Positions 754-40,845 of a stretch of 64,000 nucleotides of DNA are shown in pieces. Position 1 is the stretch's first letter. Every line of letters begins with the position of its first letter. A program made the position numbers and the translations under genes. The notes beneath the pieces were generated by a model. That model saw only the letters and a program-made list of their open reading frames with translations, had not been told where the DNA came from and made no database searches. This DNA is from Tribonema minus (lineage: Eukaryota; Sar; Xanthophyceae; Tribonematales; Tribonemataceae): positions 124,001 through 188,000 of the forward strand of contig JAFCMP010000335.1 in the NCBI GenBank assembly GCA_017506865.1, written 5' to 3'.

Positions 754-3700
754 TCAATCCAGATAGAGGACCACCTCTGCAGGGACCCCCAGCGCCTTCA
801 GGTGAGCCTCAATGGTGTCCACGAACCCCGGCGGGCCGCTCACAATGATGCGCGTGTTGCTGCTGCGCTGCCCCCACGCTGACCGGTTCGTCGGCCCCAA
901 GTCTGCGGGCATGGCGACAATGGCACACGACTCGCCGCCGCTGCCGCTGCCGCCGCTGTGACCCACCGCAGCGAGGTGCGCCAGCAGCGGCGCCAGGTGC
1001 ATGTGCAGCGCGGCGACGTCTATGCTGCCGCTCACGAGCTCGTTGCGCCCGCCGCGCATGAAGCTGGTGGGCGCGCTGCGCAGCCGCGGCGGCGTCCGCA
1101 GCCCATGCGGCGGCGGACCCCGCTGCTGGCTCCGCGGCCTGAGCGGCGGCCGCTGCGGCGATGTCTCCGCCGAGGACGGCAGCGCGACGGGCAGATGGTT
1201 CATGGTGGCGAGATCCTGCAACGAGGTGTGGTGGTGGGGCAACCTCGTGCTGACTGCACCGCCTGGCCCAACGCCACCACGCCCAGCCCCTGCTGGGCCT
1301 GAAGCCCTCACCGGCTCCTCATAAGCCACCGGCGACTCTGTCACGGTGACCATCGAGCTGAGCTTAGTGGCCAGGGCCGCGCGGCGCGAACCGGCACGCG
1401 CAGAGGGTTCCACCGGCACAGCAGCCGGCAGCGGTGTCAGCGAAGCAGACCGTCCCTGCGTGCCGCCTGCGCGGGCGGCCGCGAACGACGGGTCGGGAGA
1501 GAGCGTGACGCGGATGGCGGGCGCCAGGGCGCTTGCGGCGGCGCCGCCCTGCCTAGAGTCCATCTGCACGGCGGTCGCCAGGAGCGCCTGGTGGAGGCTC
1601 GGGGCAAGGCTGGCGCTGGCGCCGGACGTGGCGAGGGCCTCGGTGTGCGCGCGGCGGCTGCGCATGGCCTCCTGCACGCGCTTGTACTCGGACTCGCCCA
1701 GGGTCGCCACAAACTCGAAGGCCTGCCACGCACCGCGCGCCAGCGCCCTGCTGTGCCGCCTCTTGGTAGCCTCCATGGCAGCGCTGGCGGTGGAGTCGGC
1801 CGCCGTCTCTGAGTCCTCGCCATCATCGTAGCTGCAGCCGTCAAAGGCAGGCGTGCCGAGAGAGTCTATCGCCGCCGCGGCGGACGGAACGCTGCTGACC
1901 GGGGCCATTGTGGCAGGCTGAGCGTTGCTGTGCTCCTCCGAGTCGGCAGGTGCCTCGATGTCACTGCTGCTCCGCGCCGCTGCTGCTTTTTTGGCGGCAG
2001 TGGCAGGGGCGTCGGCAGCGACGACTGCGTCCACGCTGCTGCCTGCGCCGCCACACCAGGCGGAGCACGCTGCCACCGCTGGGCCACAGGCGCTGTCGAC
2101 GGGGGCGCTGGCAAAGGTGTCACGGCCGCGCAGGTACTGATCAAAGGTAGCATGCTGGCGGCCGCCTGGGGACGTGATGCCCGTCTTGATCAGGGTCTTG
2201 TTGGCGTACTGCTGGTAGTAGAATTGGGGGCTGCGGCAGGAGTAGAGGAGGGTAGGCAGCAGTGCGAGCATCAAGCAAAGAGCACTGACTGAAAATTGAT
2301 TGAGCGGCAGGCGTATGGAGCGCTGCCCGCATGTGCACGGGTCGATCGCCAGTTGGCCGTGATCATGGTGGTGGTTGAAAATCATTGTCACAGTTGTGCC
2401 TTTTCACGCAATGTTGCAAGTGGAGCTGGAAGCTGCGCAGGCACCGGCAAGTAACCACTGTGGTGGTGGTGTAATGTGCTCAGCAAACAGAGTGAGTACG
2501 CGTACTGTCAGTATCTTGGTGGTCCGCATGGCATCATGGTTCGTGGAATTGGGACACGTTGAAGGGGATTGCAACGGCAAGGCCCGGGCAGACAAACTGC
2601 AGTAGAACATGCATTGTGACCACAGGAGGGCAAGAAGCGATGCATTGTGCTACTGAAATGTCCCATGCGCAAGTCTTTGCGGTTATGAGTCAGCTCATGC
2701 CGCGAATTGCGTGAATTTTGGCTGCATCAGATATCACCTGTATTTGTCAATGCGCCTGTGCTGCAGCATGACTTGTAAGAAGACTGCTTCCAGGATGGGC
2801 ATACTGTTGTCTGCTCCTGCTGACTCACGCAACCATTCACTGCTTCAAGAACTCATAGCTCAGCACAGCAGCACAACTTGCATTTTGCAGTTGCTTTGCA
2901 GGATTGTGGGCTTGAATTTCATTGCTGCCAACAAGTGTGAAATCTGGACACCAAACATTAAAGTGCAGGCCTGCACGAGCCAATGCTGGCCTGAGTAGGC
3001 GGTGCAGTTGAAGTGCCACAAATCTATTAAAGCAGGTGCGCTACCCTTACCCTTAGTTTTGGGCTGACTACCACAGCGCCTCGCCGCTGAAAAAACACCT
3101 ATCGACCGAAGTACGAGTTGTCACAGGCACCCCTATTCGTACCATCCGTGTGTGATTGCAATAGCAGCAGCGTGACTTACGCTGTGAGTGGGTTGGCGGC
3201 TGCCAGCGCGTCGGTGCTCCTAGCAAATGCATCAAGATCCTGCGCGCAGAACGTATCCAGATCGTCGTGTGTCTGCCACAGCAGCGTCATGGACCGCATT
3301 GCAGACCTCATTTCGTCCCTTGCTGCCTGAAGACCAGCAGTGAAAGAGCAGCAGAAGAGGCATGTCATTTGTCACAAACCTAGACTCATGCATTGCGCAG
3401 TTGAGCCGGCTGATGTCCTGCAGTGGTAGTAGGCAGCACGAGCTGTTTACCGAAAAGCTGTCCTGGACTCCGCGCGCACAGAAAGATTGCATGCCACCAA
3501 ATTGAATTGGGTGTTGCACACTTGACATGGCGCAGCAAGCCACATTTCAGAAAATCAGCCACTACGTCAGGACCGATGTGTCACATTTGACAACTCCATC
3601 CTCGCCACTGCACAATGTCATGCATTACTCTTAGCCCATACCAACTGTTGATTTTGATGTGGGCATCAGTCCAGAGCACCATGCTTTTCACCAGCTTGCC

Positions 3701-6700
3701 CCATCTAGGTACATCTCCTTGTTTAAATTATCGCACCAGTATCCACATCCTCATTTCCAAGCACTGCGGCTGCGTTGATCAAATGCTTCGCAGCTGTTCG
3801 CCCCTCAAACTTTTTATAGATTCAGCAATTCAGCTCTTATCATTCTTAAAATACCGTCCGACGAGTCATGCTGGTCAATCATCAGCACTTGCCTGCTCCA
3901 TTGCGGTTGTCGCGCGCGCGTTCATGGCCTGTCGTGCTGCCTTGCGTGCATCGTCCTCCTCCGGAGGTGCAGCCGCACGGCTGAAAAAGCTCTGGAAGCG
4001 ATCTGACATGCCGCTGCTGCTGACGCCGCCGCCGCTGCCAGCGCCCAAGCCAGTCTGAGAGGTGCTGCCGCTGTACTGCATGCTGCCTAAAGTGGACGCT
4101 GATGATCGATTGGTGCTGTCGACGAGTTCTTCGTTCTCCACGCGCGTGCGTCCCATCTCAAGGCTCTGCGCCGAGCCCTGGTTGCGGTAGGGAGGCAGTA
4201 GAGAGGCATTTGTCGGTTCAGTGAAGCTCTGAAACAGTGCACAATCAAACGGTGCAGTTCCTCACATAGCATATTTGTAAGGAGTCTGCCCTCAAGCAGT
4301 AAAGACACAAGTACAACAGAGGGTCCAATGCTGATAAGCATGTACACACTGCACCAGCAGCAGCAACATGATTAACAACCATGATGGCAGTTCAATTGGT
4401 CGTCTACACATACATACCACTTTCTACATGACAGCAACAAGGACAGAGCTCAGACACCGAATTCAAACAAGCACCACGGTTTCCAATCACTTCAACACTG
4501 CATGCTCTGCAGCAAGACGCACAATCAAGAAGGAAAAATGAGAAGATCAACGTCTTACCCCATTGGCCTCGTCGTCCATGGCATTGAGCCTGTTGATGTG
4601 GCAGCGGACCAGCTGAAGCATGGGTGTCACGCCCGTGCCGCCAGCTATCATGTACACGTGCGGTGGGCAGTTGCGAATCTGCGGTTCAGAGAGAACAGCG
4701 CGCAGTCAGCTTGGCAGTCATCGCAGCATGAACAGTTGGCGCTACAAGAGGGCTGTATCTTGTACAATATGCATGAAGTAGTTGGCTTCATAGATAGCAT
4801 AGCATATGTGCCTTGAGCGCCTTATGGCAGTTACTGTATTGAAAGTACCAAGCTGGCCAGGATGCGTGTCTACAGCCATACACAGAGCACCTAGGTATAG
4901 CTATAGCACGTGCGTGCAGTCAAATCCGCGTTTTTGCAGGCGAGCACAAGTGTTGCAAGGTGATGATGGTAGCCTGACAGGGCCAACTGCAAGCTAATGA
5001 AGCCTGCTTACGCAGCTTGCGTCGGCTTCTCCATCGCAGGATTTACGTTCATGCACAAAGTTTTACAACTCAGCGCAACACTGGTCAGATGTATGTGTGT
5101 GTACAGGCTGACATAAAGACTGTATAGCAGCTCATAGTTATACTAAAATCACAGCAACCAGCAGGACACCAATACAGCACACTAGTCTTGCTCAACAAGA
5201 TCCACACAACAGCACTGGGCAACCGTGAAGTGATGTACATGCACATGACTGACACACAAAGAAACCTGCAAAGCACAACGAACACCCTCCTGCTTGTTGT
5301 CACATGATGAAAACAACAAAAATGGCTTTCTTCAACATGACAACTGCTTACCGCTGGAGCTCCAGCACAAAATTCACAAGCCAAGGCCACAACCAAGTGT
5401 CACGCACTGCAGAATGTGCCCCTTCCAGCGAGGGCGGCAACGCATTCCTGGCAAAGCTGGTCAGACTGAGGCAAAGTCATGAAGCAACACGTTCCGCCTG
5501 GATCTCAGAAGGCCCCTGAACTCCGGATGCGCACTGTGTCGCCGAACTTCAAGTAGCCCAGCGACACCATTCATCTGCCGTGTTGTACTGTTGAATGCTC
5601 AGGTCAGTGATTCTAAAGTCAATGCTGAGCCGTTTCAGAAGCAAGCAAGCAAGCAAAAGCGTATGGGCAAGAACACGTCCAGAGCCATCACGCGCACTGA
5701 CCTCCTTGATCTCAAACGGGCCTTGGATGCGCACAGTGTCGCCAACTTTCAGGTGTGCCAGCGCCACAGACATCTGCCCTGACTCATACAGCCTGCGCGC
5801 AAGAGCATACGCACATCAAACTCAAGGCTAAGGCGACCTGCAAACAGTCGAGGTGATTTTGACAAAGGTTGCTTGTACAACACGGGGCTTATCTCAAGCC
5901 ATCCATTTTGGAGCTAATCTTGCTCGTCTTTCACAGCCACAGTTGAAATGGCTGTCCCGGCGCAACAAGCCAAGTACAGCACAAAAACTGTGGCCGTGAC
6001 GCTTGACAAATGACAGCACACTGTTGATGAGACCTGGGCAAGCACTGCCTGCCTGAGTTGTGTCGTTGTCTAGCACAGCAGACATGATGCAGACGACCTG
6101 AGGTAATGCAGTGCCTCACCTGATGTAGTACTCGAAGCCAAGGCGTCCGGAGGGCATGGTGTGCTGCACAACGGGCGTGTAGCTGCGCTGTATGACGCTC
6201 CCATGCGACACCACCCTGAACTTGTGGTAGAAGCCCACGTTAAGCGGCATCACCCTCACGCTGTCATCCTGCGCAGAAAGCAGTAATGAGGTGTCATTGT
6301 AGTGTTAGAGAAAACAGAAGAAGCTTGACGTGTTGGCACAAAGCAATTGTGTGTATTAGTGGCACTGTTGGGTCTGTGGGCTGCGTGCCAGCAAAGCAAT
6401 GACTCTGGTATGTGGGCCATATTTGATTGTCAAGCTCAGTCGCCCAAAGCATCATGAATCTTTCACCCACTGTGTTGTGGCCTTCAGAACTTGGGTCTTG
6501 AAGGCTCTCAAATGAGTTCGTCAGCGAAGCGGCTAGCGCTTACCATGGACATGTAATGTTTGTGCCCAACTGCTTGCACAGCTGAAAGGCAAATGAGCAA
6601 ACACAGCAAACACCATCAGCTTCCGCGTGTTGCAGATGCTATTGCAGCTACATTACCAACTCAGCGCACCGCTGACACTCATGCTGCACTCAAGGTCAAT

Positions 6701-7412
6701 GCTCAACGTCATGCAAGCAGCGGCGCCCGCAGCCACGCAAACACAGCAGTTATCCACGAGGGCTGCTAGGGCATTTATCCTGCTTTCCAGCCTTTGGCTG
6801 CCCAAATCTTGCATGGCCTTGCCTTGGGCTCGAAGATGAAGCTCAGGACGGGGATGCTGTTGCTGTTGATACTCAGCAGCCTCTTGCTCCTGCAGGTATA
6901 CAGGCAACAGCATTTGCATTGCAGCACATCTCAACGTCGAGCACTGTAGCCAGTGGCTGGCAAGAGTTCAGCAGATGTAGTGACGGTCAGATCACCGGAG
7001 CATGTCATCGACATCAGTGTCAGGCGACGCCAAGTCTGCCTCAAGAGTGCAGACATGATCTACTCCGCGCAGCAGGACATATTTGTGTGGGCAAGCGAGG
7101 GTACCTACTCTAACTGAAGACGGTCATTGTGTCTCCTGCGGCTTCTGCACTCTTACATGCCAGTGCTGCCGGTGTTGCTGCCGTGCAGCGATGCACGTTG
7201 CGGCATTCGCCGAGTGGCGATTTGCAAAACAACATCCTTGAGTGTGGCGTGCCATCACCCAGCTTCAAGCCCAATCTCAATTTCAAACAGCTCGAGCTCA
7301 CCTCAGGATAAACTTCAGGAACTGCTGCTCTCCGCCCATGGCCTTGCGCCTCAGGCTGCTGCTGCTGCCACCAACGCTGGCGTCTGGAGTCGCTGTTGCA
7401 GAGGGCAGTTTG
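754..7412 (-). CDS. Exons 23-30 of the fusion gene: cytochrome b5 reductase-type FAD/NAD(P) module with a giant insertion
   Basis: Exons 7,412-7,302; 6,889-6,823; 6,268-6,120; 5,792-5,702; 4,678-4,559; 4,228-3,893; 3,326-3,181; 2,230-754. The FAD lobe shows RSYTPV (flavin binding) and GQMS plus KVGDTVRIQGPF. The NAD(P) lobe begins with HVYMIAGGTGVTPM. The family would normally reach its CGPP motif within about 70 residues. Here roughly 600 residues of Ser/Ala/Pro-rich sequence come between, and the protein ends with IIVSGPPGFVDTIEAHLKAL and VVLYLD. Two introns use GC donors (gcaagg after 6,823, gcaagt after 3,893). The last exon is open for 492 codons to a TAG/TAA-type stop at 754, so the insertion is probably translated. 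Confidence 0.85.
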
Positions 7413-10400
7413 CTGCAGGCGCCGCATCACGGCAGTAGTGGCGCATCAGCCAGAGGCGAGCTACTGGTACTTTAAGTACGACTCCACGAGAACATGATTG
7501 AACGTCACAGTGTGAAACCTCTCCTGCGAGAGCGCTAGCTGAGGCCTGATGGTTGTCTGGACTGCTTCTAAAAAGTGGACTCAGTGGCGTGACAAGAAGG
7601 GCGGCGGCGGCTGCTTGGTCTTCACCAACTGGCGGCAACTGCTGGAGGCCGGTAGCATGGCCGCCTGACACATGCGGTCGGAGGCTTGTATCATCTTATG
7701 TGACAAATTCATGGACGTGGTGCGTAGAAACAAAATAATAGGTGGGCTGCTGGAATGGGGAGCAAGCAGCTGGGAAAACTATGCAACAGATTGAAATGCA
7801 CGTTGTGGTAAATATTGAAATGGCAACTGCAGATGGGCGCAGTGGGAATGCAAGGAGGTGCACCCAGTGTGCGCTAGGAGCCCGTTGCTACTGGTGCAAT
7901 GGGTAACCTGTACATGCTCCATATCAGTGAGATAGTGTTTCCAAAAATGAGTACTTGGCGTTGAATGTTATAGAGTCTGCATGCTTAAAGCACACACATC
8001 AATTGTTGTGTGCATGGTTGATATTGTCTTCAGTAGGGGTCAGACTCTTTTCTGGCGGACGGGCAAGGTTTCAAAGGTGAGGCTTAAAGCTCGGATGGTT
8101 GCTGCAGCCATCTATGCTGCAAGTTCATCACAGCTCACGTTACGTCAGTACGTATGGACTTGTATTTATGTTACGTCAGTACAGGTGAGAGAGATGCCTG
8201 CACTTAGGACGTTTGCATACAACGTCATGTGCAAGAACTCCTGAATACTAGAAGTTTGCAAAAGACGTATCTGATCATACCATTCAAGCAGTACAAGCAC
8301 AAGCGTACGCACTGGGGCATATCACTTTGCAACTTCTAGAAAACTCCATAGGCGCCTCAGGAGTAGAATCAGGATAACAGTCAGGTTTGATGATAGGGTT
8401 AGAGTCAGCACCTGCTGCCCAGCATAGCAGGCTGTAAGTCCAGCACCTCCTCGTGGACATCCACCTGTTTACAGCCACAGGCGCACATCGAGGGACAAAT
8501 TGAGAAATGACTCTGACTCAGAGATGCTGCAGAGTGCTGGTGTTAAGCCAGCAGGCCCTACTAGTAGTGTCCTCAATGGCGCCCTCATTACTGCATGCAT
8601 GACACAATAAAAGTTGCGTGGAATCATGTGATATGTCAACGGTCAGAGGAGCCTGAACAGCAGCAACAGCTGTGACTGTCACAGCCACGAGCACAATCGA
8701 AGTGTCTTGCAGTACAAGGAACTTGTCTGACTTCCAAGAGGCCTCTGGTGAGGAAAAGGGTCCTTACAACATGCAGGTGGCATGCTGCCTGCAACTAATG
8801 CATACGCGGTAGCAGGTTCAGCCACGACAGACCCAGATGTTTATACCTGCAAGTTTGACATGATGCGGACAGGGCTGCACACAACTTGAAGTTGTCATGG
8901 TTATGGTCACTTTACGCGCACTGGCACGCAAATTGCACAGCGCCCATCTTTCAAGATCAGCTATACTGTTGGTATAACCTCCTATTCTGGGCATCAATTG
9001 AGCATTTCTGTTGTCCTTCTGCTGCTGTTGGGAGGTAAAGGCTGGTGACAGCTCGGCGCGTCGGATTTTCGAACATGACCACCTAGTTGCAGCAGCTGCA
9101 TCAGGCGTTGTACTCACGTGGGCGATGATGTGCGCCTGTATGGCCATCCAAGCCTTGTCACTGTTGCAACGCAGCAGCAGCAAGCAGAGAGCAGAGCTGA
9201 AAATGAGTGAGTGATGTGTGGCAGCTCCATCAACTACACCTCTGAGTCAGCATCCCAACTCTTGCTCACTCGGCTCACTCGACAATTCGCTCATCTCCAT
9301 GAGATAGTCGTGCTGCTCCTCCGCTTGCCTGGCGCATCAACCGCAACCGCAACATTTGACGCACCACAGGACAAATAATTTCACAAATGTTGACAATGAA
9401 ACGCCCTGAAGCAGGCAGTCTGGCATGTGAGTGTGCGTCATGAGATTGTGAAGCTGCTGCATGCGTGGACGCAATATAGGTACTGCGGAGTACATCCCAT
9501 GCCGATGAAGGGTACACATGCATGTAGACGTACACTTGCGTCGAAGCGTATTGTGAGGTCTGCAGCGGGCACAAGCATGTGGTGTGTTTCCGGTAGACTG
9601 GCATGTGCTGTCACTCCCCGATGACACAGGTGTGCAGTAGTTTTCAGAACCACATCCTCTTCCGTACTCCACAACAAGACTCATAATGATACGAAATTAG
9701 TGCTCACCACTGTTAAACCATTTCAATGTGGTCAGCTAGCTGCTTGCCTGTCACCAGCACCCCAAGTACTGATGTTTGATGAGGTTGGTACGTGTGGAGT
9801 TTGATGATGCTACAGTGGCTGCAGTGACTTCTCCAAAAAATCGCAATCTTGAAAGTTTCTCCTGAGTACAGAACCGTTGGCGCTCGTGCGTTTAGTCGCT
9901 GAGGATCAATAAGACGCATCGATTGCACCCGCTCTCGCTTCTGCGGTCGCGTGTGCTGAGGCCCTAACTGATCTGGCGGGAAGGGGCCCGAGCAGTCGCT
10001 CCAAAGCAAACTTCGTCCCACGACGGTCCGCAAAATCATGGGCGGGTCTACAGAACCCTTTCGATGTGGCGATTATTCTCCAACTTTCAGATTGTGCCGA
10101 AACGGCTGTACTAAGGAGAACTTTCAAGACTTGCCGGCAAATAAAAACCCTATAGTTTAGCCCAAATTTGTAAGGGAACCTCTTCAAGCGTCCCTACAGC
10201 TATGTACGCATGTGCCCCACGTGCAATGAGGCAGTGATGCAATCAGCACTTGCGTCGGTGAGGTTGCCTTCTCAGACAATCACAGAGTCTATACGGATGC
10301 ATGTAGACATGTGTTACTGTTATGCTTGCCTGTGCTTGTGGCCGCCTTGCACAATGCCCTGCCCTACGCCCTCCAGGCCAGTGATCTCCTTCGTGATGTC

Positions 10401-19400: not shown

Positions 19401-22400
19401 AGCTGTAGTAGCGGAGGCAAGGGGATGAGGGGGCCTACAAACTTGCGCCTGCGCTGTCAGATGAGTGTCTAGGAGTGCTTTTACGAGACTGCCAGTGCAA
19501 TATACTGTAAGTTACATAGAGCCGTGCGACTATAATGGAGGGTACTCAGTGCAGCAGAATGGAGCTTAATGCTGTGGCAGGTTGACGGCAACCGTTGCAA
19601 GCAACTTCTGAAGCTTCAGATGAGAGGTGATAGTTCTGCCAAATAGCAAATTGAATGCAAAGCTAGGTGGACATGCGCTAATCTTAGTACATGGGTGGCT
19701 TTTCTGCTCGAGCGGGCTGCAGGCTCAACTGTTGAGACGCACGCATGCTACTAGGAACAAACCTCAGGCTGAGTACCAGCGGCAGCTGTGCTGACATACC
19801 CCAAGGCGCACTAAATTCGAGCTACTTCTACAGTGAAATGGGTTTGCCCACTCCGCTGCAAGAACAGTGGCTGCTGGTCAGTAGGGCTAGGGTTAGGTCA
19901 CGGCTAGCCATTAGCCTGACGGTGAGGGCTGCGGTCAGGGTTATTAGTAGGTCAGTAATGCACATGGTAGCCCTAGGCTTTGGAAAGATATCTTCATTTC
20001 GGGCGAGGAAGATGAGAGGGCAGCAGGCTAATCACTTCCAGGCTGCAGTGCAACCTGATTTCAAAATTTTGCAGCAGTTGTGTGAGTATATTCAAGCAGC
20101 AATGACTGGTGGTCAGAGGGGTCAGGATGAGGTTTGAGATAAATGTAACCGGTATTGCATGTGACTGCAGTGAATCATCAATAATGCACTGAAGGTCCAG
20201 AGGGTGTTACGGCTGCTGTTGTGATGTACATACCGCACAACAGTTGGCGGTTGCAGCGCACTGACCTCTGATCTCTGACGGCGTTCTTGATCAGCTCTGG
20301 CAGGCTTACAAGGCGAGAGTCCTCGATCACGTTCTGCGCTCGCAGAGCAATGCATATCGAGCATACACAGACCTCAGCATGAGTGGCCAATGCAGCACCA
20401 ACGAACGCATGCAAGCCTGCAGCACAAAATCGCCTTTGTGTGATAAATTGGCACTGTTTGATGCAGGTGGACCTCCTTCGCTGCTTGTGAAGTCATAAGA
20501 TACCAACGTCACTATGCCTGACACAGACCGTAAGGACTCTTGTATTACCCATCATATTCAGAAGCTGTGAATGCAACAGCGGACAATGCAGGTGGCTGCC
20601 AAAAGGATCAGCAGCAACACACAGTGCGGCACTGAAGAGAGCGAGTGCCCTGGCATGACTAAAATGTGGTGCAACATCAAAGGCGGTCGCCGATTGGGGG
20701 CCTGCACAGCTAGTCCGGCATTGCTGCACTCATACCATGCTCAGCGTGTGGAAAGCACGTCATTGCGCCCGAACCTACATCTCATAGCTTGCGTAGGTGC
20801 GGAGCAGAGCTCTGCATAACACTCTTACCGCATGGTTGTGGTAGAAGTAATCCGCTTTCTTGATCCTCTGAAGCTGCGACAGGAGGATTTTCCTGCATGT
20901 GCGCGCACAACAACACAAAAAAAGATCAGAAAGAAGAAGGCAAGACAACGACAGTGCCACCGTCTACCAACAACGAATCAAGGAAGCAGCAGTGTATGTG
21001 TGCTCAGTGATCAGCGGTTACGCTATTTGGCATTACACCCGCACACTTGAGCAGCTGCCCCTCTGCGCCGCTATTTAGCTGGCTGCCATGCAAGCCTCCT
21101 GACAGCCCCACCAACAAATGAAGCATACTAGCGCCTCAGTACTGCAGAACACCTTGGCGTCCATGGTATACTCTTCAAGTTGATGCAGTCTGCCTTCAAG
21201 GCTGAATCGAAGGTGGTGCTTCTCCGCAGCCACTCTGCAAACCCCCAAGCCCCCTGAGCTACAGTGCGCATGCATTCTACAGCAATCTAGTTGCATCAGG
21301 CATGTGTGGATTTCTGAGTCATGGTAGCCCTAAATTAGGGTTGCGATGCAAACACAGGTTGCGCAGACAAACTCACTTGAACAGCGGCCCCACTTGGCTC
21401 GTCCCCTGCGGCTTCTCCGCAAGCCCCCCCACAAGGAAGTCCACATTGTTCACGTCGTGATACATATTCTTCAATGTTGTGGCCGTTGCTGCAACCGCCG
21501 TTGCATCCGGCGCTGCAGCGACTGATGATGCAGACGACACACTGGCAGTTCCCGCGACGATTTCTTCGAATGAATTCGCTGGGTCCAGCCCCCAGGCCGT
21601 GCGCGCGTCGTTGTAGCTCCATAGCTTGAAGTCACGCCCAGCTTGTAGAGTGGCGTTCAGCGGCTTGTGCAGGCATGACCCAGGCGTCGCTGCTCCCGCC
21701 GCCCCCGCTGGCAGCCGCAGGTCCACCTACACAATAGTGTTATACGTACGGCCAAACAAATCGAAGTGCTTGGCACAGAGCTCACCACAGTGAAGCTGCA
21801 GCAGTTACTGCAGGCGCAGGTCTGCCCTGGATCACGGTATCACGTGCAAATGAACACAGGGCAGTGCTTAAGTGCTCAAGACTCGTCAGTACATGCAGAC
21901 AAACACACACGTCAGTACTCAGCTCAAAACTTCCATCGGCGCTAAGCTCAGTGCGGCAGGCAGGTTTGCTTGCATGACAGTGTCGCGTATGCACACAAAC
22001 GACCTGCTATACAAGCGCTAGCACATAGGCTACAGCAATAGATGCTGTGTTGCGAAATAGCGCACACTTGACAACAGCGGACGCCTGCGTTAATCATTCA
22101 GGCGCGCCGCCAGGCACGCACTGCAGAACTGCTCAGCGCAGAGCTGACACAGCGGTGCACAGCGTTGCAGTGGCTTGCTGTGCTAGCCGCGTGGTGCTGG
22201 TGTGCGCAGCACTGGCACGAATTGAATGGCACAGCATCTGCCGCCACACCTCCACGCAGATGTACTTGAAGTTGTGCCAGGGACATGCCTGTCCCATGCA
22301 AGCCGCCCCCTAACGAGAAGTGAAAATGGTGAGCGTGTTTGCGTATACATGCTTGCAGCTTAGTCTCGTGATTTGCTTTGCAAACTTCGGCAGCACATGC

Positions 22401-23981
22401 AAAAGTGGTCAGCACATGCCTCACACGTCCTGGTGCATCTTTTGCAGCATGCATCTGCATACCAAGGCCATTGAAGTGCTCATTGCCAAAAGTGGCAACT
22501 GCTTCGCGTTGTTGTAGCTCAGCAACACGCTGGAATCCTGTAAGGGTTTTCATGAGCACCACTGACTAATAGCCTGTAGGAGTCAGGACATGGCACTGCG
22601 TCCATTGTCATGTCAGCAAGCAGCTGCTTCTTGCTCATGCATCGCATTGGGGCCAACATTGATCATTGAACGTGCACTTGAGAGGGTACCGCAGTGGTGC
22701 GTGATGATGTCTGTGCTGAGCTAGAGGTGTGCCTGCCTTTGCCTGTAGAACGGGGACACTCGCACGTTGAGCACTGTAGGATCTGGTGATCCGCAGGTCA
22801 CCCATAACCCTACTCTCGCAACCCCAAATCTGACAATTAAAAATAATCTATGTCACCTGCTGGAAGGCACAAGGACTTCGTCTGGGGAACCACAATTCAG
22901 TTTCTCTGCTTGTGTTGGTGCCTGAGGCTCCAGCATGTACAATTCAGTTTCTCTGCTTGTGTTGGTGCCTGAGGCTCCAGCATGTACGCTCACCTCGCCT
23001 GCGTCTGCAAGCAGCATGCCGCGCAGCAGGCCATCAACGCCACCGTTGCTCAGCATGGACACCATGTCCTCGTGCTCACAGACAGTGCCAACGGGGGACA
23101 TGTCCCACGCAGAGCCGGCTGTCCACGTCGCGTCCAGCACGCGATCGACTGCAACGACAATGCCAAATTGAAGTTAGCGCATCACTGAGCTGTACGCTTC
23201 TCAGCATGGCACGCATCCAATGGCTACCACCAGAGCGGCGCATGCTGTCATTACAGGGGCTGCGGGAGCGCAAGCTTTGAAAAGTGTCTGCGAATTGATG
23301 CAGTGCAAAAAGAGAGTTTCCACGAGGGTTTCAAGCCACTAATAACGTACATCAGTCGAGAGCTCAGCTTACAACGCTAGCCTTGCATGCCCTACCGTCA
23401 GAGCCAGCCAACAACGCCCAGAATTGGGCTCTCATGGCCTGCAGGTGATATTGGCTGGTGAGGGCATTCTGGCTCTCATCATGCATTTTGGAGCAGATGG
23501 GCATACAACCAAGTGCAAGGTCTTGCGTTGACTACTATTTCTAAAATAAAAATGCGGGCCAAACATATGCATGACCTTCGGTGACCTGCAGACTATGCAC
23601 TGAGTCTTGGGCCGTAAGCCATGTACAAGACTGGCAGTGCGGCATATTATATGCTCTGGCAAGCATACAGTCAAGCACATGGCCTCATGTCGATGCGTTC
23701 CGTTTACACTTAGGGACGGTGGATGGATGACTCTCATTGCCCTACAAGAATGACGCCACGCACTCAGGCCGCGGCGCGTATGCAAACGTCAGCGCAAACG
23801 CTGCTAGTGCATCCATTGTTGCGGCCATCTCAGCGTCACACAGTAGTAGTCAGTGAGGCTGGCGCTGCTTGGGCTGGGCAACCCCAGTCATCGCAGAGTA
23901 GTCGAATGTGATAGGCTGAACGATCTCACCAGAAACGGCTGCCACACACCCGGGCCGGGAGCAGTAAGCGCAGCCGCCAGC

Positions 23982-24027
<46 letters not shown>

Positions 24028-27000
24028 CAAATGCTGCTACTGCGTCTATAGTAGGGTTCCTGATGTTATGGCAGTCGTTGAGACTGGTGCTGGCTGAGTA
24101 CAACCAGAGTCAGCTGGACAAGCTTGAAGTGGTCGAAAATGATTCAATTTGGCTGAATGATCCTACTGAGAACGGTCGGTACGCACCTGGGCCGAGAGCC
24201 GTGTACGCAAACATGAGTGCAGACGCTGCTAGTGCGTCCATAGTAGGGTCCAAATCCTCCTCGTAGTAGTTGGTGACGCTGGTGGTGATTTGGCTGGGCA
24301 GGCCCAGTGTCAGCGGGACGAAGTAGTCGAACGTAATGTGCTGGAACATGGCGGTCGTCAGGGAGCGTGCTGCTTGGAATATTTCTTCATCAGTCCACTG
24401 CAGCAGCACAAATGAGTGACAGTGACAGAGAATTTATCACTGCTTGCTCATGAGGCAGCACAGGTTGTGCTAAAAGTGCGCTGCTTGGAAACATGGGATT
24501 CTTGGTCCACCGGAGTGACGCAAGCAGCAGGGACAGGACAACAAGGCAGCTCATATGGCAAGGCGCAGATGTGTGCTAAAACACGCAATTGTTGCAGGGT
24601 GTGTTTTGCAATGAGTGACAATGAATTCAACATGAGTTGCTAATCGCCACACAAATGGCAAGTTTTGTGCTGCGTATGATTATGCGCAGCCCTGCAAAGC
24701 GGTGTCTCAAGTGCGACAATGCGATTGCAGAGGACGAGATCAGCGCAAACCTCGAACGACATAGCGCAATACGCATCGGGCTGGGGGCGATCATCATTTA
24801 GTGCACCGGAGATGTCCTTTTTGCGCAACTGCAAGAAGGTCACACAGCATATACTCACATGCACTCAAACATTCTGCATATGCCAACAAATATACAGGTG
24901 GAGGGTCAGCGTAGAGACCACAATCAAGGCACTGCAAAAAGTGCCGGCACTGCCTTGATTTTACATACTATTCAATCTGAATTGTGGGGGGCATCATGAA
25001 ACATGCTTGCTTGGCAATCTGTTCGGCACCACACTGCAGCGATGCAGTGAGGCAAGAATGATGTCAGCCTCAATCACAATAAACAGTGCGACAATCGTGG
25101 TTTTGTGAATACAAGAGGCAGCTAGCTGACTGTGGCGGCGCCAATTGTCAGAACCTACTACTCACCGTGCTGCAGCGAAATCAACAAGCATCCAAGAGGG
25201 GCAGTGCAAATCCGGCATTATTGGCGCCTCTGTCTTCATGCAGCGCAGGCAACTTATCAACAGTTTCCGGCTCATTCAGAAGTGCTTGGCCGTCATCAGC
25301 AGTCAAATGCATCCCACAAGATGACATGGTTGCGTTGAATTAGGTCAGATGTAGCTATTACTCGATGCGACTGTGTGAAAACAAAACCGTACCTGAAGGG
25401 CAAGGTTGGGGTCAGGGACATTGCAGCAGCCAGGGGCAGGTGCGCATCAGGCTGGGCATTGAAGCAAAGCTGGCGCTATTTACTAGTGCTTAGTGCTGCG
25501 CACACCTGCTGGCCTGATGTTCAGGCAACTTGCTTGAAGTTGCATCATCAATCGCTGAACACTTTTAACAGGTAGAACGCTGCTGCTGATGAGTGCTGAT
25601 GGCAGTTTCTGAACGCCGCGCACATTCCAACCCAGCCGCTTTTGGTGCACTTGTTACACGTAATACAGCAGCGCACCCGGTACATGTGGCCTTACTCACT
25701 GCCCTGCCAGCGCTGCTGGCGTCATCAGCGGTGGGCTATGGTAGCCTTACGCTCACCTCGGTGCAGACTATGAGCATGTACTTCGCAGTATACACACATG
25801 AACACGCTCACCTCAGTGCAGGATAGTACGGGACAAGACCGTGAGCTGGGCTGGGCGCCCGGGTCATGCTTCGGGTCGCACACGCTGCATCCCGGCTTGG
25901 CCGTGTTGTTGTGCGCAGTGTCTTCCATGCTCTGGAGCTTCGTCGTGTCGAATGAAGCGGCAAAGATGTTGTGCTGGCGCAGCAGCAGCGTGTGCAACGC
26001 CATGGTCCCCGGTAGCTGCGCGCTGCGCTGATCGGCAATTCGAAATTGCTTGGTGCCTCTGGCATCGACGTCATCCTCCATCGGAAGGTCGTCGTTGTCT
26101 GACATCCACATTCTGCCGCCTTCGAACGAGCGTAAACGCTGGAGAGCTGTCACATTGCGCCCATAGATGCTGGCAATTCACGGGACAAAGTGCGACAGCC
26201 GCCAGCAAAAGGTTCCGCGTCAATGGCTGAAAGTTTCGCACATGGCTGATGCAAACAGTGTCACACCCAGGGACGCTAAGCTCACTGGTTGTACAGCAGC
26301 GCTAGTAGGTGCTGAAATGCAAGCAAGCTGACTGAAATTCTTGGCACTTTGTGGTGACTCATTGTGGTGACTCATGAGTAAAGAGGCCATGTCACGCCAT
26401 GGAAGCTGGCTTGTACAAGGTCCCTCCTGAAGCGCAATGGCCTGAAGAGGGGAGCTCGAAGCGCAATGGCCTGAAGAGGGGAGCATTAGAACTCTGACGA
26501 CCATGTTGATTTAGAGAGAATACTACCAATGTCATCATGTACTAAAGCCACAAGCCTCAGCTACGACCACATGATACATGCATGCTCCATTGCAATTGTC
26601 AGCATACAAAGTCAATGCTTATATGTACTACTTCTGTTGGTAACAGACATGACTCCGTTGATGACAGAAATGTGAAGTGCATTGCTGCCCCTGCAAAGAT
26701 TGACCTGAAGGGTCAGAGTCAGAATGGCCGCCAGTTCAGCTTTGGCTTCACCACCATACACAGCGCAACCTCAAGCCTTTCAAAAGTTCAAGTTGATTCT
26801 GAGCAATGTTGCGCCGCTCACATGTCAAGGTCCAGGAAGGAAGTCGCCATGTTCAACGGTGCGGGCGGGTTCTGTTTTGGGTCCGTCGCTGCATCACAAA
26901 TCGCATCCGACCCCGGATGACAGTGCTGCGGATGCAATGGGGCCAGTGGTGTGTCACCTCTTGAAGCGCAGCTCTCTTTCTCAGGACAACGTGCACGTTT

Positions 27001-30000
27001 GGATTGTGGCCCTTGTGCTAGTAGCAGAAAAATTGCGGCGTGCTTCACACAAATATGCACCATCCATAGTCTCCCGATATTTCTGATAGTAGTATGCTGG
27101 TAGAAGTTGTGCAGATTTGGGTATTGTGCCATCGTATTTTGAGGATTTCACTGTGTATGTGCTTATCAGCTCCCATGCTGGGTTTGATGGTACAAGTTGT
27201 ACCAGCACAACAACGTCACGAGACAACTGTATTGGTTGTCCGAATTGAGACAGCACGGTGACACCAAATATGGTGTGCTTAGCAAAGTCAGCTGCGTCTG
27301 CATCATTGCGTCCGCAGTAGCATGGGGTAAGCAGGGCGTGGCACCTCAGCAACAGCATTGTCACAGGAAAGTCCGCAGCGCGTTTTTGCAGCACAGCAAC
27401 TTGTCAATGAATGGTCTGGGAGCGCTGCTCATAGTACAGCAGCAAGGCACTTTGAGCTCGTTTCCGGCATATGCGCATTGCAGTGTCAGCACTAGCGTCG
27501 GCATCAAAAGGATACCGGCATAATATGGTGTAAGTTTCATATGTGTATCATAATGTCGCCAGATCTCGAGGCATGTCTGACTCAGCCCACTGCTGATGTA
27601 CATCATAATAACTGCATATACTACCAAGCTGTGAGTACTACCAAGGTGTGAGCCCCTGACAGCCAATTTGAAACAGGCAGGCCACTTGAAATGATCAAGC
27701 ACAACTGCCATCATGGTGCTCCTGACATTAGTACTATGTGGATGCAGCTGGGATTATCGCCAGATAGGTCTGACACTCTTGGCGCAACGAATATTCTTGT
27801 GACGCGCTTGCAAGTCACAATGGCGCAATTGCTTCAGATTGCTGGGATTGCGCTATGGCCTGCGTCGGCCAAGCAGGCAATATCCTGACATATGCTGCAC
27901 ATGGCATAAGTGCATGTGCCCCTGAGCTCATGCCACAGTGTAAATGAAGGTACAACATCGTGTGACCACGCATTTCAAATTTCTAATGCAATCCTCAAAG
28001 TAGACAAAGCTGGTGGCTGCAGGCAGGTGTTTACTCTATTGTTATGATTGTACATTATGAATGGAATTAAGGCTCACGTACGTCAGACCTGATCAATGAC
28101 TCCTGTTACGGCGGGGCACTTTAATTGTACCGACAGGTATGTGGGCTACCTGGACAGACTTCCTTGTCCAAAGAGCCAGTTGCCTCACATATACGGTATG
28201 TACCCTATTCTATTCTCACAATCTAGCCAGTTGCATGCCTCACATGTACCCCTACCTCACAGGAGTCCCGAATATCGACCATGTCATGGTACACCATCAG
28301 CGCCCAGTACGCCCATGCCTGGTACAGCCAGAATATGCAAAAGATACAGCACGTTGTCAGTGACATATTCTAAGTCTTGTTCGCAATTCCGTTGAATTGT
28401 TGACTTAAAGGAAGCGGCACAGTGTCACATGCATTTGCCACATGACTGTCATGATGGAAACAGACTGGAACATCATACAGCTCTGGACAAAGAGTTGAAC
28501 ATGTGGCTTCTGAATGCTGCATGCTGCCAATGGTTTCATGTACGCTACAGTCGCAGTATAATACTGCTTGTAGTCAGGTCTGTGGCGCATCGGAGGAGCG
28601 GGTAGCTGTGCAAGCGTGCATAATGATTGCATGTATAGTGCATCTGTGCAGCATGTGCTAAGTACTTCAGAAATCTGGTGCAGCACACCTTGAAGCTTGT
28701 CAGGATTGCGCCTTGATGACATGGTGGTCCAGGATCATCTGCGATATATTACTTCTAACGTAATATGTCAAGCGCAATGCACGTTTAACGTTTGCAGTCT
28801 GTGAAGCCACTTGTCACTGTGCTCAGATTCTCACAAATTGAAAGAGCTTCAGGTGCAACAACAACTTACGCATGGTGAGTGAGACAACGTCACAGTGGTT
28901 ACCGTGGCCATTGCTGAAGGTGTGGACCTGAGGCTACTAGTAGGTGGCAAAGGGCCAACTGAGTCAGACTTTTGGAAACAGGATGTTGTGTGACCACAAG
29001 CAGGCTGAGCGTTGTAACAGTGACTTCTCCGTAGTATTAGTGGCACACATGTTGCGGTGTGCCACTGGGCTGCGACACTGTTGCATGGGAAAGTGGCAGT
29101 CACAACGTGTGTGCCCATGCTGCCAGGCTGAGTGTCATCAGCCTGAGCATGCAACTGTGCATCCAACTGCAGCTACAAGTTGCCTGTTGTCAACCAACTT
29201 GAAGGTTGCAGTAGTAGCAACATGCAGCGCCAAAGTTGTCGGGCCGACAATCGCTCGAGCGGCTCGAAAGTGTTGCTGACAAGGAGTCTGATCTTAAAGG
29301 CTACTTAAAATTTTGTGCGATGGCACCAAATTGAATTTTCCTGCAATGTGTTGTTACAATGTATGTCGTATACAAATGCAAGTGTAGAGCACCTGATTCA
29401 GCTTCTGCGGGTTTAATGGCGCGTTGCCGTCCGTGGACTCCAGGAAGACTCTGTTCAGGATCTGCCAATGAGGCAGCAGAAGGGCAACACATGATGGTGC
29501 AATCAGGTGAAGCAGATGCATGCGGTGTGCACGTGTACTTCAAGTAGCACTGCTAGCGCGAAGCCGCTGCGTATGATCCTGATGATACCTGAGTACCCTC
29601 TCTTGCTGACCACGTGCGGTGACCCTGTGTGTCAACTGCCACGCATGATCGACGTCAGTTGCGTGGAGGTGCAGTGTGCTAGTAGTAATGTGGCACGGGC
29701 AGCTGTGGACCCACTGGCTCTATGTCCGGCGCGTCAACAATTACAGACATCTTTTTGACACTAACTGCTATACCCTTGCCATTGCGGCATTTGGTTCTTG
29801 TGATGTTAACAATTGTTCGCGGCGAAGCGGCCGCGCTCATGCATGACATGGCGCATTTTGCAACACACGACAATAGCGCCATCGGGCCCGGGCTGCAGAT
29901 GAGGTTGTCGCAATGGGTGATGTCCTGTTGGGCTGCGCCCCAGTCTTGTCCGACACGGTGGTGGTGCCCTCTAAGAGGGATCGGGCCGCCTGGCAGCGGC

Positions 30001-31127
30001 GGAGGAGGCCCCGTCTGAGTCTATTCTGTAGATAGCTTTGTGAGTATTTGTGTATGCTCGAGATCTTGCAGCAGGGAAGACATGCACGAGCTCAAGAGGG
30101 GCATACCTGTTGTACGCGATGTGCGATCATGGGGTTTCCGCCCCTCAAGTAACCCGGGAAGAAAACAAGTACTACTACACACAAGTACCCAGTGGCACAC
30201 AACCACGTAGTACTCATACTTTTGTTGTGATGCACCGCAGCAGTTTCATGTTGTAGTCATTGTTGTATGTGATGCGGTAAAAGTGATTCAGAAGCTGATT
30301 TTGAATCAGAAGCCTTAGGTTACCACACTGGCAGGACCTTGTCTTGCAATGGGCTATAGTCACCATGGTCACCGTATTACTAGACTAGCGGTACTGTCAA
30401 CTCCTCTGGGAGCATTGCTAACTTCAAGATGTTGAACAGTACTTACAGCAATACTTGCCGCCCTAAGCGCAGGGCTATGATTTTGAAATTGAACATCAAT
30501 GTCATCGCATAACAAAACAAGAGTTCGTTGGTGACACGTGTCAACTGTGTGCCATGGCCAGGTTCTGTGCACACCAAAGACACTGTGAAAGCGAAGCAAT
30601 CATTGCACTGTACAGCAAGAGCACCCGTGACTGCAGCAGTTGTTGAAGCAGCAGCAGCTGCAGCACAGGAAGCATCAGCTGGCAAACTTTTGTCTGGCAG
30701 CACTGCTGCGATGCACTGCTGCGATGCACAACATGATGATGCCGCGTGGCATTGAGCTGACATGAACTCAAGAATCGACACACTGACAGACTGCCTCAGC
30801 GCGACGGTATCAACTCATGTTTTCTGCCGTCGGGAGCCCAGCAGGCTGCGGGTTGGGGTCGAAGGACAGGGCTTCGCCCTGATCAGGCTCGTCAGGCTCG
30901 TCCTGAAGCTCCTTGTTAGCGGCCTCCCGCAAAGCAAAAGGACTGCAGGCTTTGCCCCACCCATGCTTGGCAGAATTTAAGCTCCCGTCCATATCGTGAG
31001 GGTCGATCTCTACATATTGAGCAAAGGGTGCAGGAGCTGGCGTTGGAGAGAGAGCAGAGCAGTCAGCCGCCACCCAGCGCACTTGCAGTAGCGCTGCATA
31101 CGCACTGAGCAACGCCTTCCGCTGCAT
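754..31127 (-). CDS. Peroxidase-DOMON-cytochrome b561-cytochrome b5-b5 reductase fusion gene (dual-oxidase-like architecture), about 30 exons
   Basis: Thirty minus-strand exons were joined by splice sites. From the exon starting at 26,925 down to the stop at 754 the chosen junctions keep one frame, including the critical peroxidase-to-DOMON joins (20,266 to 18,846 in phase 2; 18,732 to 17,602 in phase 0). Order: signal peptide, animal heme peroxidase, DOMON, five-helix b561 with four heme His, cytochrome b5 (HPGG, HKHS), FAD domain (RSYTPV), NAD(P) domain (GGTGVTPM, GPPGFV). Inferred topology: peroxidase and DOMON outside the cytosol, b5 and reductase inside, so electrons from NAD(P)H would cross the membrane to oxygen or to the peroxidase, as in DUOX. 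The protein would be roughly 1,700-1,900 residues. Weak points: one or more exons between 28,870 and 26,925 and the first junction (30,815 to 29,461) are unresolved, and two DOMON splice sites are non-ideal. The alternative is two adjacent genes, but no start, signal peptide or terminator was seen between the halves. Confidence 0.75.
5500..5578 (-). repeat. Decayed extra copy of the FAD-domain exon at 5,702-5,792
   Basis: The stretch repeats most of the exon at 5,702-5,792 (same GATGCGCAC, GTGTCGCC and AGCGACAC blocks with mismatches). It lies about 130-200 bases downstream in the intron on the transcribed strand. The copy has lost an open frame. Confidence 0.75.
7413..10329 (-). other. 2.9-kb intron between the b5 and reductase parts
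   Basis: No exon fitting phase and family was found here. The join from 10,330 (GC donor) to 7,412 restores a normal HKHS motif, which argues that nothing coding is missing. No repeat was recognised. Confidence 0.5.
10330..11195 (-). CDS. Exons 21-22 of the fusion gene: cytochrome b5 domain
   Basis: Exon 11,195-11,104 encodes WVIVNDAVVDVADYMRVHPGG, in which HPGG holds the first heme-ligand His. It ends in phase 2 with a gtaata donor. Exon 10,410-10,330 continues with GTDITKEITG and ends in GGHKH, with the second ligand. The split Ser codon joins it to the exon at 7,412, giving the family signature HKHS. The donor after 10,330 is gcaagc, a GC-AG intron. The domain sits directly after the last b561 helix (FNDGVMQ then GEKW) and so should face the cytosol, relaying electrons from the reductase. 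Confidence 0.85.
11280..11395 (-). repeat. Decayed extra copy of the cytochrome b5 HPGG exon
   Basis: It matches the exon at 11,195-11,104. Its translation runs KWGVVNDAAVDVAD and then hits a stop before HPGG. It lies upstream of the real exon in transcription, unlike most other copies in this window. Confidence 0.8.
11737..15141 (-). CDS. Exons 15-20 of the fusion gene: cytochrome b561 transmembrane domain
   Basis: Exons 15,141-14,993; 14,373-14,272; 14,013-13,873; 13,018-12,887; 12,471-12,433; 11,919-11,737. All internal junctions are phase 0. Five hydrophobic helices are visible. Four carry the family histidines expected for two hemes: FALHGLVMLVAW, NWMDVHAMAAS, TKHGKIGLAMLIG and KYLHRWLGRAMVVLGLFN. 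The fifth helix is HYIGPIALFLYIILFV. The role would be passing electrons across the membrane between the cytosolic b5/reductase side and the DOMON/peroxidase side. The 39-base exon at 12,471-12,433 encodes only a hydrophilic 13-residue loop. Confidence 0.85.
15951..18846 (-). CDS. Exons 11-14 of the fusion gene: DOMON heme-binding domain
   Basis: Exon 18,846-18,732 (GVNNTAYPVDSFHSEG to AIEFVQ) starts with one base that completes the Arg/Ser codon left open by the last peroxidase exon, and it ends in phase 0. Exon 17,602-17,453 carries the DOMON opening (AYKVAWTVDSSKGTITF, FYFAIGLGDKM). Exon 16,604 to about 16,500 carries VTDRFSYNNMEPVEDKTND. Exon 16,122 to about 15,951 carries the closing DOMON pattern FTRNLKTGDTQDKDIDVD and VIWSYN. 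The last two exon ends are tentative: the donors would be gtgaaa and gttgat. DOMON domains bind heme or sugar on the non-cytosolic side and commonly precede cytochrome b561, which fits the next exons. Confidence 0.75.
16868..16962. repeat. About 28-bp tandem repeat, three copies
   Basis: Units built on gacagtgacgccaggta followed by acacacgtgc or acagacgtgc occur three times in tandem within a DOMON intron. Confidence 0.8.
20266..31127 (-). CDS. Exons 1-10 of the fusion gene: signal peptide and animal-type heme peroxidase domain
   Basis: Exons (high to low): 31,127-30,815; 29,461-29,393; 28,927-28,870; 26,925-26,822; 26,169-25,812; 24,397-24,187; 23,148-22,994; 21,726-21,377; 20,892-20,829; 20,333-20,266. 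Exon 1 starts with a hydrophobic leader (MQRKALLSAYAALLQ) chosen over an ATG at 31,196, then the family opening DGSLNSAKHGWGKA. Later exons match the peroxidase family in order: TSFLDLDIIYG; the gapped motif D.RSAQLPGTMALHTLLLRQHN; WTDEEIFQAAR; FQHITFDYFVPLTLG; GGVDGLLRGML; AGRDFKLWSYNDARTAWGL; VDFLVGGLAE; QLQRIKKADYFYHN. The distal His is probably in exon 3 (HCDVVSLT). The usual proximal heme-ligand position in the FRFGH motif reads MFAYT, with Tyr in place of His. The heme-ester Glu position reads Gln. At least one exon is missing between 28,870 and 26,925. Confidence 0.8.
22897..22985. repeat. 45-bp exact tandem duplication
   Basis: The unit beginning aattcagtttctctgctt and ending ctccagcatgtac is present twice without change, immediately next to the donor of the peroxidase exon at 23,148-22,994. 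Confidence 0.9.
23745..24160 (-). repeat. Two decayed copies of the peroxidase exon at 24,187-24,397, one interrupted by a 42-base A tract
   Basis: Blocks such as gctgctagtgcatcc, gggctgggca, agtagtcgaatgtga and the donor region repeat the real exon twice more downstream in the intron. In the middle copy, 42 consecutive A (23,984-24,025) break the duplicated sequence. Read on the minus strand it becomes a run of about 14 Phe between AAFA and ALAAAL. Confidence 0.8.
26404..26490. repeat. 31-bp tandem repeat, two copies
   Basis: The unit gaagcgcaatggcctgaaga plus ggggag occurs twice in a row in an intron of the peroxidase part. Confidence 0.8.
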
Positions 31128-40104: not shown

Positions 40105-40845
40105 AGGTATACGTACTTTTTATTAATTCTCGCTCAGGGCGCGAAAAAGCCCAGATGATTGGCATCTAGCTGTAAGGAATCTACATGTCGTATGACAGTC
40201 TGAAAGTGTCGCAACGACAACCACTCAAACGCCGCCGCCGCCAAATGGCATCTCGGGGTCCTCCCCTACGTCCTCCTCCATGTGCCCCCCCCCCCTGGAT
40301 TCTGCCATGTGTGTCATGACACGGCCAGAGTACGCCATGTGGAGCGCTGCCGACAGTGCCGAGCGTAAGCGCGCCAGGGCGATGCCCTTGAGAGCTTTAG
40401 GGCGCGCTCCTCCGGGCACTGACATCCTGCTGGCATACTCCGTCGCCACAGCCTCCAGCAGCTTCCGCCCCTGCTCCCCGATGCTGCCAAATGACCCTAT
40501 TGCCAATGTGGCAAGTTTGTAGCAATTCTGATCATAATGACCAGAATAGTGGGTAGTCCTGGCGGCCTCTTGGTCGCGGCAGCATCGCTCGGGGTCTGCT
40601 GCAGTCTTCGCCGCCCGCGACGCCACCTGTGCCTCGAAGCAGGTAACGTCCGCCATGAGCGGTAGGTGGCGTGTCGGGTCGTCGTAGCCGGTCACCGGGA
40701 AGGCGTCGGCAGGCAGCACGATGTCCATCCTGCGACTCCCCGGCGGCCCGGCGGACCCCAGAAACGGCGTGTAGTCCTCGTCCACCAGTCCCGTTTTGAG
40801 GTATTGCCGCAGGAGGCGCTGCGTGGCCCTCTTGACGCTATTGTG
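40105..40845 (-). mobile_element. Retrotransposon 5'-truncated copy 2 with intact partial frame and probable target-site duplication
   Basis: About 740 bases are nearly identical to copy 1. The post-reverse-transcriptase coding region is uninterrupted here (YLKTGLVDEDYTPFLGSAG to MAESRGGG). GTATACGTACTTT lies at the 3' end (40,108-40,120) and again right after the 5' truncation point (40,845-40,857). This is what a 13-bp target-site duplication of a 5'-truncated LINE insertion looks like. Part of the left copy could belong to the element's tail. Confidence 0.85.

Follow-up and report, generated by a model that had tools for sequence, protein, structure and literature searches.

A six-locus family of Tribonema minus very likely fusing a peroxidase-homology domain to a DOMON, b561-like, cytochrome b5 and reductase chain

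The window analysed here is a stretch of 64,000 nucleotides from the xanthophycean alga Tribonema minus (contig JAFCMP010000335.1, positions 124,001 to 188,000; G000:C335:124001-188000 in our numbering of the source genome, which comprises 158 Mb in 554 contigs). Its minus strand carries, in the final version of our gene model, a chain of 33 exons running from an ATG at 31,127 to a stop at 754 (1,957 positions including the stop), which combines a domain of the animal haem peroxidase family, a DOMON domain, a b561-like membrane part, a cytochrome b5 and a FAD/NAD(P) reductase. Judged from sequence, the fusion is very likely real, and the genome holds six copies of it. The reading that we regard as best, and as somewhat better than evenly probable, is that of a six-member family of NAD(P)H-driven transmembrane reductases bearing a DUOX-like, mainly non-catalytic peroxidase-homology ectodomain, with ferric iron or a similar oxidant as its presumed outer acceptor. 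The exon chain had been proposed in a first-pass annotation of the same DNA, and it is confirmed here both by family matches and by the same chain at five other loci; the two joins then singled out, 20,266/18,846 and 18,732/17,602, are present in our model at exactly these positions, in phases 2 and 0, respectively.

The gene model was obtained with a small exon-chaining program of our own, trained on the window exons and guided by anchor peptides. Using exons 1 and 3 to 12 as the query, with the doubtful exon 2 (30,174-30,107, on the minus strand as are all exons below) excluded, the first domain is assigned by Pfam to PF03098, the animal haem peroxidase family, with an E-value of 4.6e-61 over profile positions 4-493 of 530, and its solved relatives include chains named lactoperoxidase, peroxinectin A, myeloperoxidase and dual oxidase 1. 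The DOMON domain matches at 1.6e-14 in the window and at 8e-17 in paralog C479, where CDH-cyt, a haem-binding DOMON relative, appears weakly and below the cut-off (0.0021). The intracellular part is represented by Cyt-b5 (6.8e-9) and FAD_binding_6 (1.7e-9) in the window, and by NAD_binding_1, which reaches 2.5e-6 once two low-complexity inserts are removed. The FAD and NAD domains carry the RxYTP and GGTGxTP motifs, are cytochrome b5 reductase-like by profile and have NADH-cytochrome b5 reductases as their nearest solved relatives (2eix at 3.4e-15 and 7rom at 7.7e-14).

The membrane part is named b561-like because it is placed after the DOMON domain and contains four His conserved at all six loci, which in the window are spaced by 32, 30 and 48 residues. 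Four helices exceed the hydropathy threshold; another, less pronounced helix (exon 17) was assigned by eye, and a total of five would fit an outside-in topology. Among the families that had been named beforehand, PF03098, DOMON, Cyt-b5 and the FAD/NAD domains stand above the Pfam cut-off, and b561 stays below it, our own call resting on position and the four His. As for a NOX/FRD core (FAD_binding_8/NAD_binding_6), NAD_binding_6 and Ferric_reduct are listed by Pfam below cut-off only, and no EF-hand family is listed in the Pfam-scanned pieces, exons 24-27 lying outside that scan.

The genome contains at least 17 matches to PF03098, and all those listed fall at six loci, i.e. the window, C543, C479, C63, C540 and C542. 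A query made of the DOMON-b561-b5 part leads to the same five further loci, always downstream of the peroxidase part, on the same strand, in the same order and within about 20 kb; the DOMON exon of C543 was missed by this query and recovered by exon-wise tblastn. The reductase exons follow at all five other loci, and the order-filtered chains obtained with 30 exon queries retain 26 exons in C479, 24 in C63 and in C540, and 23 in C543. The same DOMON-b561-b5 query gave one weak extra match on C533. Chance splicing of unrelated exons was considered and is ruled out by the presence of the same chain at the five other loci. Because all six of the PF03098 loci found show this chain, the proposal that it encodes a single polypeptide, in which a complete haem path from NAD(P)H to the outside follows a peroxidase-family domain, is strongly supported. 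The haem ligands expected along the electron path are also maintained: six of six loci keep the Met and His of DOMON, the four His of the b561-like part and the two of b5, all assigned as ligands by analogy with HYP1 and b5.

Concerning the join between both halves, a bridging exon (exon 12, 18,732-18,846 in the window) is modelled at all six loci, after the final peroxidase exon and ahead of the DOMON core, in every case entered in phase 2 and left in phase 0, and it is devoid of Met at three of them, including the window. Its acceptor at 18,846 is the weakest of the chain (-1.6), and 18,813 offers an alternative in the same phase. The motif [YF]Px[DNE]xF occurs in the bridging exon of all six loci and in only 10-54 of 20,000 shuffles per sequence, a count to be read knowing that the motif was picked post hoc, after viewing the bridging exon sequences. 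The preceding exon 11 (20,266-20,333), which ends the peroxidase part in phase 2, has a tblastn counterpart in five of five paralogs, in order and with weak E-values (0.045-0.78). From this last peroxidase exon to the bridging exon the distance is 594 bp in C542, 607 bp in C540 and 1,419 bp in the window. In C479 and C63, the only conserved ATG-donor candidate within the exon 11-12 intron overlaps the bridging exon itself, and of the 12 candidate start exons for a separate DOMON gene in the window, the best is an 11-residue stub. Even at best, splitting the chain into two genes costs 17 or 27 bits, depending on which of two gene penalties is used; the gene-finder score is crude, and both penalties were set by us.

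The haem site was compared through an alignment of the six loci with six bacterial PF03098 relatives (L001-L006). The proximal ligand is Tyr in the window, C63, C540 and C543, Cys in C479 and His only in C542, so that the His is found at one of six loci. At the distal His position the window, C540, C542 and C543 keep His (four of six), and C479 and C63 have Tyr. The distal Gln is replaced by Leu at every locus, the ester-link Asp that precedes the distal His by Tyr or Phe (Tyr in the window), the ester-link Glu by Gln or Arg (Gln in the window) and the Asn partner by Asp or Thr (Thr in the window). Both the distal Arg and the Asp that follows the distal His are retained throughout. In mammalian peroxidases the Asp and the Glu link the haem covalently; we take the roles of the distal Gln, of the ester-linked acids and of the Asn partner to be those of myeloperoxidase, where the Asp after the distal His is a calcium ligand. 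The window copy, in short, presents distal His and distal Arg together with a proximal Tyr.

These substitutions bear directly on the claim of the first-pass annotation that the ectodomain makes or uses hydrogen peroxide, which finds no support for the window copy, given its Tyr at the proximal position, Leu for the distal Gln, Tyr and Gln for the ester acids and Thr for the Asn. We conclude that the window ectodomain is probably not a classical peroxidase. An active peroxidase, i.e. a true DUOX analogue making or using hydrogen peroxide at the cell surface, would agree with the full-length PF03098 match, with the distal Arg kept at all loci and the distal His at four, and with C542, which retains proximal His, distal His and Arg; with the proximal His absent from five of six copies, including that of the window, and four further site positions replaced in all six, we hold it to be unlikely, albeit the strongest of the alternatives.

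Somewhat less probable still is that the haem is bound through Tyr or Cys, and that the electron wire feeds a novel chemistry of catalase-like or thiolate-haem type. The haem may indeed be held by Tyr, considering the proximal Tyr in four of six loci and Cys in one, the Asp or Thr in place of the Asn partner and the invariant distal Arg. Selection points in the same direction: the peroxidase domains of C479 and C63, each of which lacks both His, have a dN/dS of 0.28 (569 codons, z 6.2); the other parts give 0.56 in DOMON (z 1.7, not significant), 0.04 in b561, 0 in b5 and 0.07 in those reductase exons that were used, all values coming from this one pair with exon 3 and low-complexity parts excluded. 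By this measure the peroxidase domain is under purifying selection in C479 and C63 and not simply decaying. On the other hand, the proximal residue varies within a single family, and the distal His is missing too from C479 and C63, as would be expected if no haem were bound. A particular form of this proposal, to which we give the same low credence, is a surface peroxide reductase rather than a peroxide maker, in which a wire-fed site of peroxidase fold, its proximal His swapped to Tyr (catalase-like) or Cys (thiolate), would reduce peroxide or another oxidant.

About equally doubtful is a reading in which the family member in the window is decaying into a pseudogene. In its favour, the GT donor of exon 1 (30,815) has very poor surroundings (score -8.6), the exit of exon 15 towards 15,141 is poor, and an intron holds, at 23,740-24,109 (minus strand), decayed partial copies of exon 7, the later of which by our own reading still encodes Tyr, together with a 42-base A/T run. 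Nevertheless, about 30 homologous exons are open, although the model selects open exons only, GC3 is 0.73 in the exon anchors of the window gene, every electron-path residue is retained, and repeated exon pieces are present in the C543 paralog model as well.

Several other observations weigh, with the C542 site, the possible Tyr ligand, the single-pair dN/dS and the two poor splice sites, against the fused and mainly non-catalytic reductase that we prefer. The b561 part scores only 0.0026 with Ferric_reduct and 0.27 with Cytochrom_B561 (PF03188). tblastn with the window bridging exon gives no convincing counterpart in the five paralogs, the bridging exons of which were placed by the model, and an extra exon stands beside the bridging exon in two of the models, before it in C543 and after it in C540. 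The bridging exon does not resemble bacterial peroxidase C-termini significantly, as 516-1532 of 5000 shuffles reached the same similarity. Between C479 and C63 the intron before the bridging exon is 72% identical and the one after it 92%, compared with 88% and 96% for exons 11 and 12, and therefore identity alone is no exon marker. Furthermore, the paralogs share common ancestry, hence the six loci do not represent six independent fusions. A Phe of exon 12 falling in an invariant column of the bacterial peroxidase alignment had been taken up as proof of bridging and was dropped, its shuffle test not being significant. Two adjacent genes, one for a secreted peroxidase-like protein and the other for DOMON-b561-b5-reductase, co-duplicated to six copies, could invoke the model-based placing of the paralog bridging exons, a peroxidase frame that continues past exon 11 to a stop at 20,181 and a short ATG exon at 19,797-19,763 (11 residues with a weakly hydrophobic start) that could in principle begin the DOMON part, but we reject them as highly improbable on the split score, the bridging exon modelled in matching phases at six loci and without Met at three, the gaps of only some 600 bp in two paralogs and the lack of a usable conserved start exon in C479 and C63.

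For the six-member reductase family, the following working can be proposed from the families present. The C-terminal flavin domain would draw electrons from cytosolic NAD(P)H, which would then pass from FAD to the b5 haem, to two b561 haems, to the DOMON haem and finally to an acceptor outside the cell, the likeliest being, we infer, ferric iron or a similar oxidant. The built-in b5 and reductase would substitute for ascorbate, the donor of HYP1. The peroxidase-homology domain would cover the outer end of the wire, as in human DUOX1 (PMC7794343), and, because none of the six copies has an unaltered haem site and five are without the proximal His, its role would be mainly structural, in assembly or in substrate binding, as in that protein.

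The exons are distributed over the domains as follows. Exon 1 (30,815-31,127) provides the ATG, an N-terminus that by eye is signal-peptide-like and the start of the peroxidase-homology domain (DGSLN), the PF03098 match beginning at chain residue 46. Exon 3 (29,393-29,461; ILNRVFLES...) lies within that match and has similar exons in the C479 and C540 models. The distal haem region AYWALMVYHDM, with its His retained and Gln changed to Leu, is encoded by exon 4 (28,256-28,318), and exon 5 (26,822-26,925) continues the domain with NMATSFLDLD. Exon 6 (25,812-26,169) reads IYGR...ADQR...LLLRQHN, ADQR including the distal Arg, and exon 7 (24,187-24,397) forms the proximal helix, in which Tyr replaces the haem-ligand His (ALMFAYTALGP). 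The peroxidase part is continued by exon 8 (22,994-23,148), exon 9 (21,377-21,726; LQAGRDFKLWSYNDAR...VDFLVGGLAE, PF03098) and exon 10 (20,829-20,892; KILLSQLQRIKKADYFYHNHA).

After the bridging exon, exon 13 (17,453-17,602) holds the DOMON core (PF03351) with the Met ligand (GDKMVDADV), exon 14 (16,476-16,604) continues the domain and has a GC-AG donor, and exon 15 (15,951-16,092), of uncertain 3' boundary, ends it with the His ligand (VTQHSY). The b561-like His numbers 1 to 4 are encoded together with helices 1 to 4 by exons 16 (14,993-15,141), 17 (14,272-14,373, the weak helix 2), 18 (13,873-14,013) and 19 (12,887-13,018), followed by a short loop exon 20 (12,433-12,471) and by exon 21 (11,737-11,919), with helix 5 and a cytosolic linker. 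Cytochrome b5 starts in exon 22 (11,104-11,195; PF00173), with the first haem His (HPGG), and exon 23 (10,330-10,410) bears the region of the second (GHKH). Exons 24 (9,118-9,160; SDKAWMAIQAHIIAH, the b5 end) and 25 (8,412-8,464; VDVHEEVLDLQPAMLGS) were absent from the first model and recovered via the paralogs. Exon 26 (7,302-7,412) is a linker to the reductase, the FAD domain of which begins in exon 27 (6,823-6,889), carries RSYTP in exon 28 (6,120-6,268; PF00970, with cytochrome b5 reductases matched in the PDB) and extends through exon 29 (5,702-5,792). Exon 30 (4,559-4,678) contributes the NAD(P)-binding GGTGVTPMLQ, exon 31 (3,893-4,228) is a low-complexity insert within the NAD domain, exon 32 (3,181-3,326) returns to that domain (MTLLWQTHDDLDTF), and exon 33 (754-2,230) encodes the second insert and then SGPPGFVD...VLYLD up to the stop, being divided into two exons under a laxer setting.

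The model of this one gene includes four GC-AG introns, with donors at 16476, 10330, 6823 and 3893 (minus strand). Besides the exon 7 copies, decayed partial exon copies are seen in introns at 11362-11315 (exon 22) and 5585-5523 (exon 29), both on the minus strand, and some of these relics of exons 7, 22 and 29 contain stops. Tandem exon duplication looks common in the gene family. Telomere-like CCCTAA runs occur inside the contig, with 13 matches at no more than one mismatch as compared with none in 100 shuffles (e.g. 18045-18059, 52029-52049 and 52907-52945), one of them inside the exon 12-13 intron.

Upstream on the same strand, a crude model spanning 63972-40225 (minus strand) matches bZIP (1.2e-10) in one stretch and glycosyl hydrolase family 10 (3.5e-19) in another, which are probably separate genes run together. 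Two frames on the minus strand about 7 kb apart, 40228-40902 and 32684-33253, are near-identical by eye (MDIVLPADAFP...), have no Pfam match at an E-value of 0.01 and are taken as a dispersed repeat. No Rfam family is matched at gathering scores over the whole window. PF12499 yielded no match, nor did it in any control. Elsewhere in the genome, the chlorophyll-binding family PF00504 has 92 matches; part of one such frame, compared with solved structures, finds LHCI-11/9/6/8 chains (9vfj) first and then ACPI, CAC and ACPII, and part of a second has FCP and fucoxanthin chlorophyll a/c proteins as its best matches. Antennae of chlorophyll a/c type are accordingly more probable than those of a green alga, a label considered at first and dropped on this comparison. 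The genome has two FAD_binding_8 matches (G000:C290:658806-658913 and G000:C11:255962-256072), and the peroxidase-DOMON family may therefore exist alongside genes of NOX or ferric-reductase type.

Wider searches were made for relatives outside this genome. In a collection of genome contigs, 22 stretches match the search pattern and six encode a relative, all of them labelled bacterial, and a plasmid search with one bacterial relative returned 58 records with bacterial peroxidases. Three scans of viral contigs yielded no relative, one of them giving 35 pattern matches, none confirmed. The six bacterial peroxidases L001-L006 resemble the algal domain over its full length at 24-27% identity; they differ from it in retaining both the proximal and the distal His as well as Gln, Asp, Glu and Asn, and in having, by eye, no DOMON-b561 part in any of the six reading frames that encode them. 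Our literature searches, which covered open-access PubMed Central papers, found no protein with the present architecture.

Among known systems, animal DUOX1/2 share the general plan of an N-terminal extracellular PF03098 domain, a transmembrane domain with two haems and a cytosolic FAD/NAD(P) domain. The analogy with DUOX drawn at first pass is apt, and it extends further: in human DUOX1, too, the peroxidase-homology domain is without the haem His, and no haem was seen in it; it contains two cation sites and rests against the membrane domain (PMC7794343). Unlike DUOX, the algal proteins have a membrane part made of DOMON and a b561-like domain rather than NOX/FRD, an inserted cytochrome b5, a flavin domain of FAD_binding_6, b5-reductase type and no EF-hand listed in the scanned pieces. 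In eFRE of Naegleria and oomycetes an extracellular DOMON is likewise joined to a transmembrane reductase, here of ferric-reductase type, with an FRD core instead of a b561-like one; the available part of that account mentions neither a peroxidase domain nor b5, and in its scheme of ferric reductase evolution DOMON and the DUOX peroxidase domain are add-ons of different clades, not seen together (PMC3591440).

The flavin domain is closest to that of solved NADH-cytochrome b5 reductases, and the b5 shows the familiar HPGG and second His region, with the differences that the algal version is fused behind a transmembrane haem wire and that its NAD domain has two large low-complexity inserts. The membrane core resembles CYBDOM proteins such as Arabidopsis HYP1 and CRR and Chlamydomonas TEF22, the last named as DOMON plus b561 in PMC4855317, in having a DOMON with Met/His ligands followed by a four-His membrane part, which in HYP1 is a five-helix b561. 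HYP1 has its b561 His at 211, 245, 278 and 314, takes its electrons from ascorbate in the cytosol, passes them through the membrane and reduces ferric and cupric substrates; its authors propose a path of three haems, in which a Met-His pair holds that of DOMON (PMC10784544). The algal family differs from CYBDOM by the peroxidase-homology domain in front and by the b5 and b5 reductase behind, and from HYP1 in its presumed donor. We would class it as a CYBDOM variant that has a reductase of its own and an ectodomain like that of DUOX, and not as a DUOX, since it is without a NOX core; it would be a self-contained, NAD(P)H-driven CYBDOM, and it may serve in reductive iron uptake or in other redox work at the cell surface. 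The peroxidase fold appears to have been joined twice to a transmembrane NAD(P)H-driven wire, with a NOX core in animals and with a DOMON-b561-b5-reductase core in the alga. With the haem-ligand His lost both in human DUOX1 and in five of six algal copies, the purpose of such an ectodomain becomes testable in a second lineage, where natural variants with His, Tyr and Cys stand side by side.

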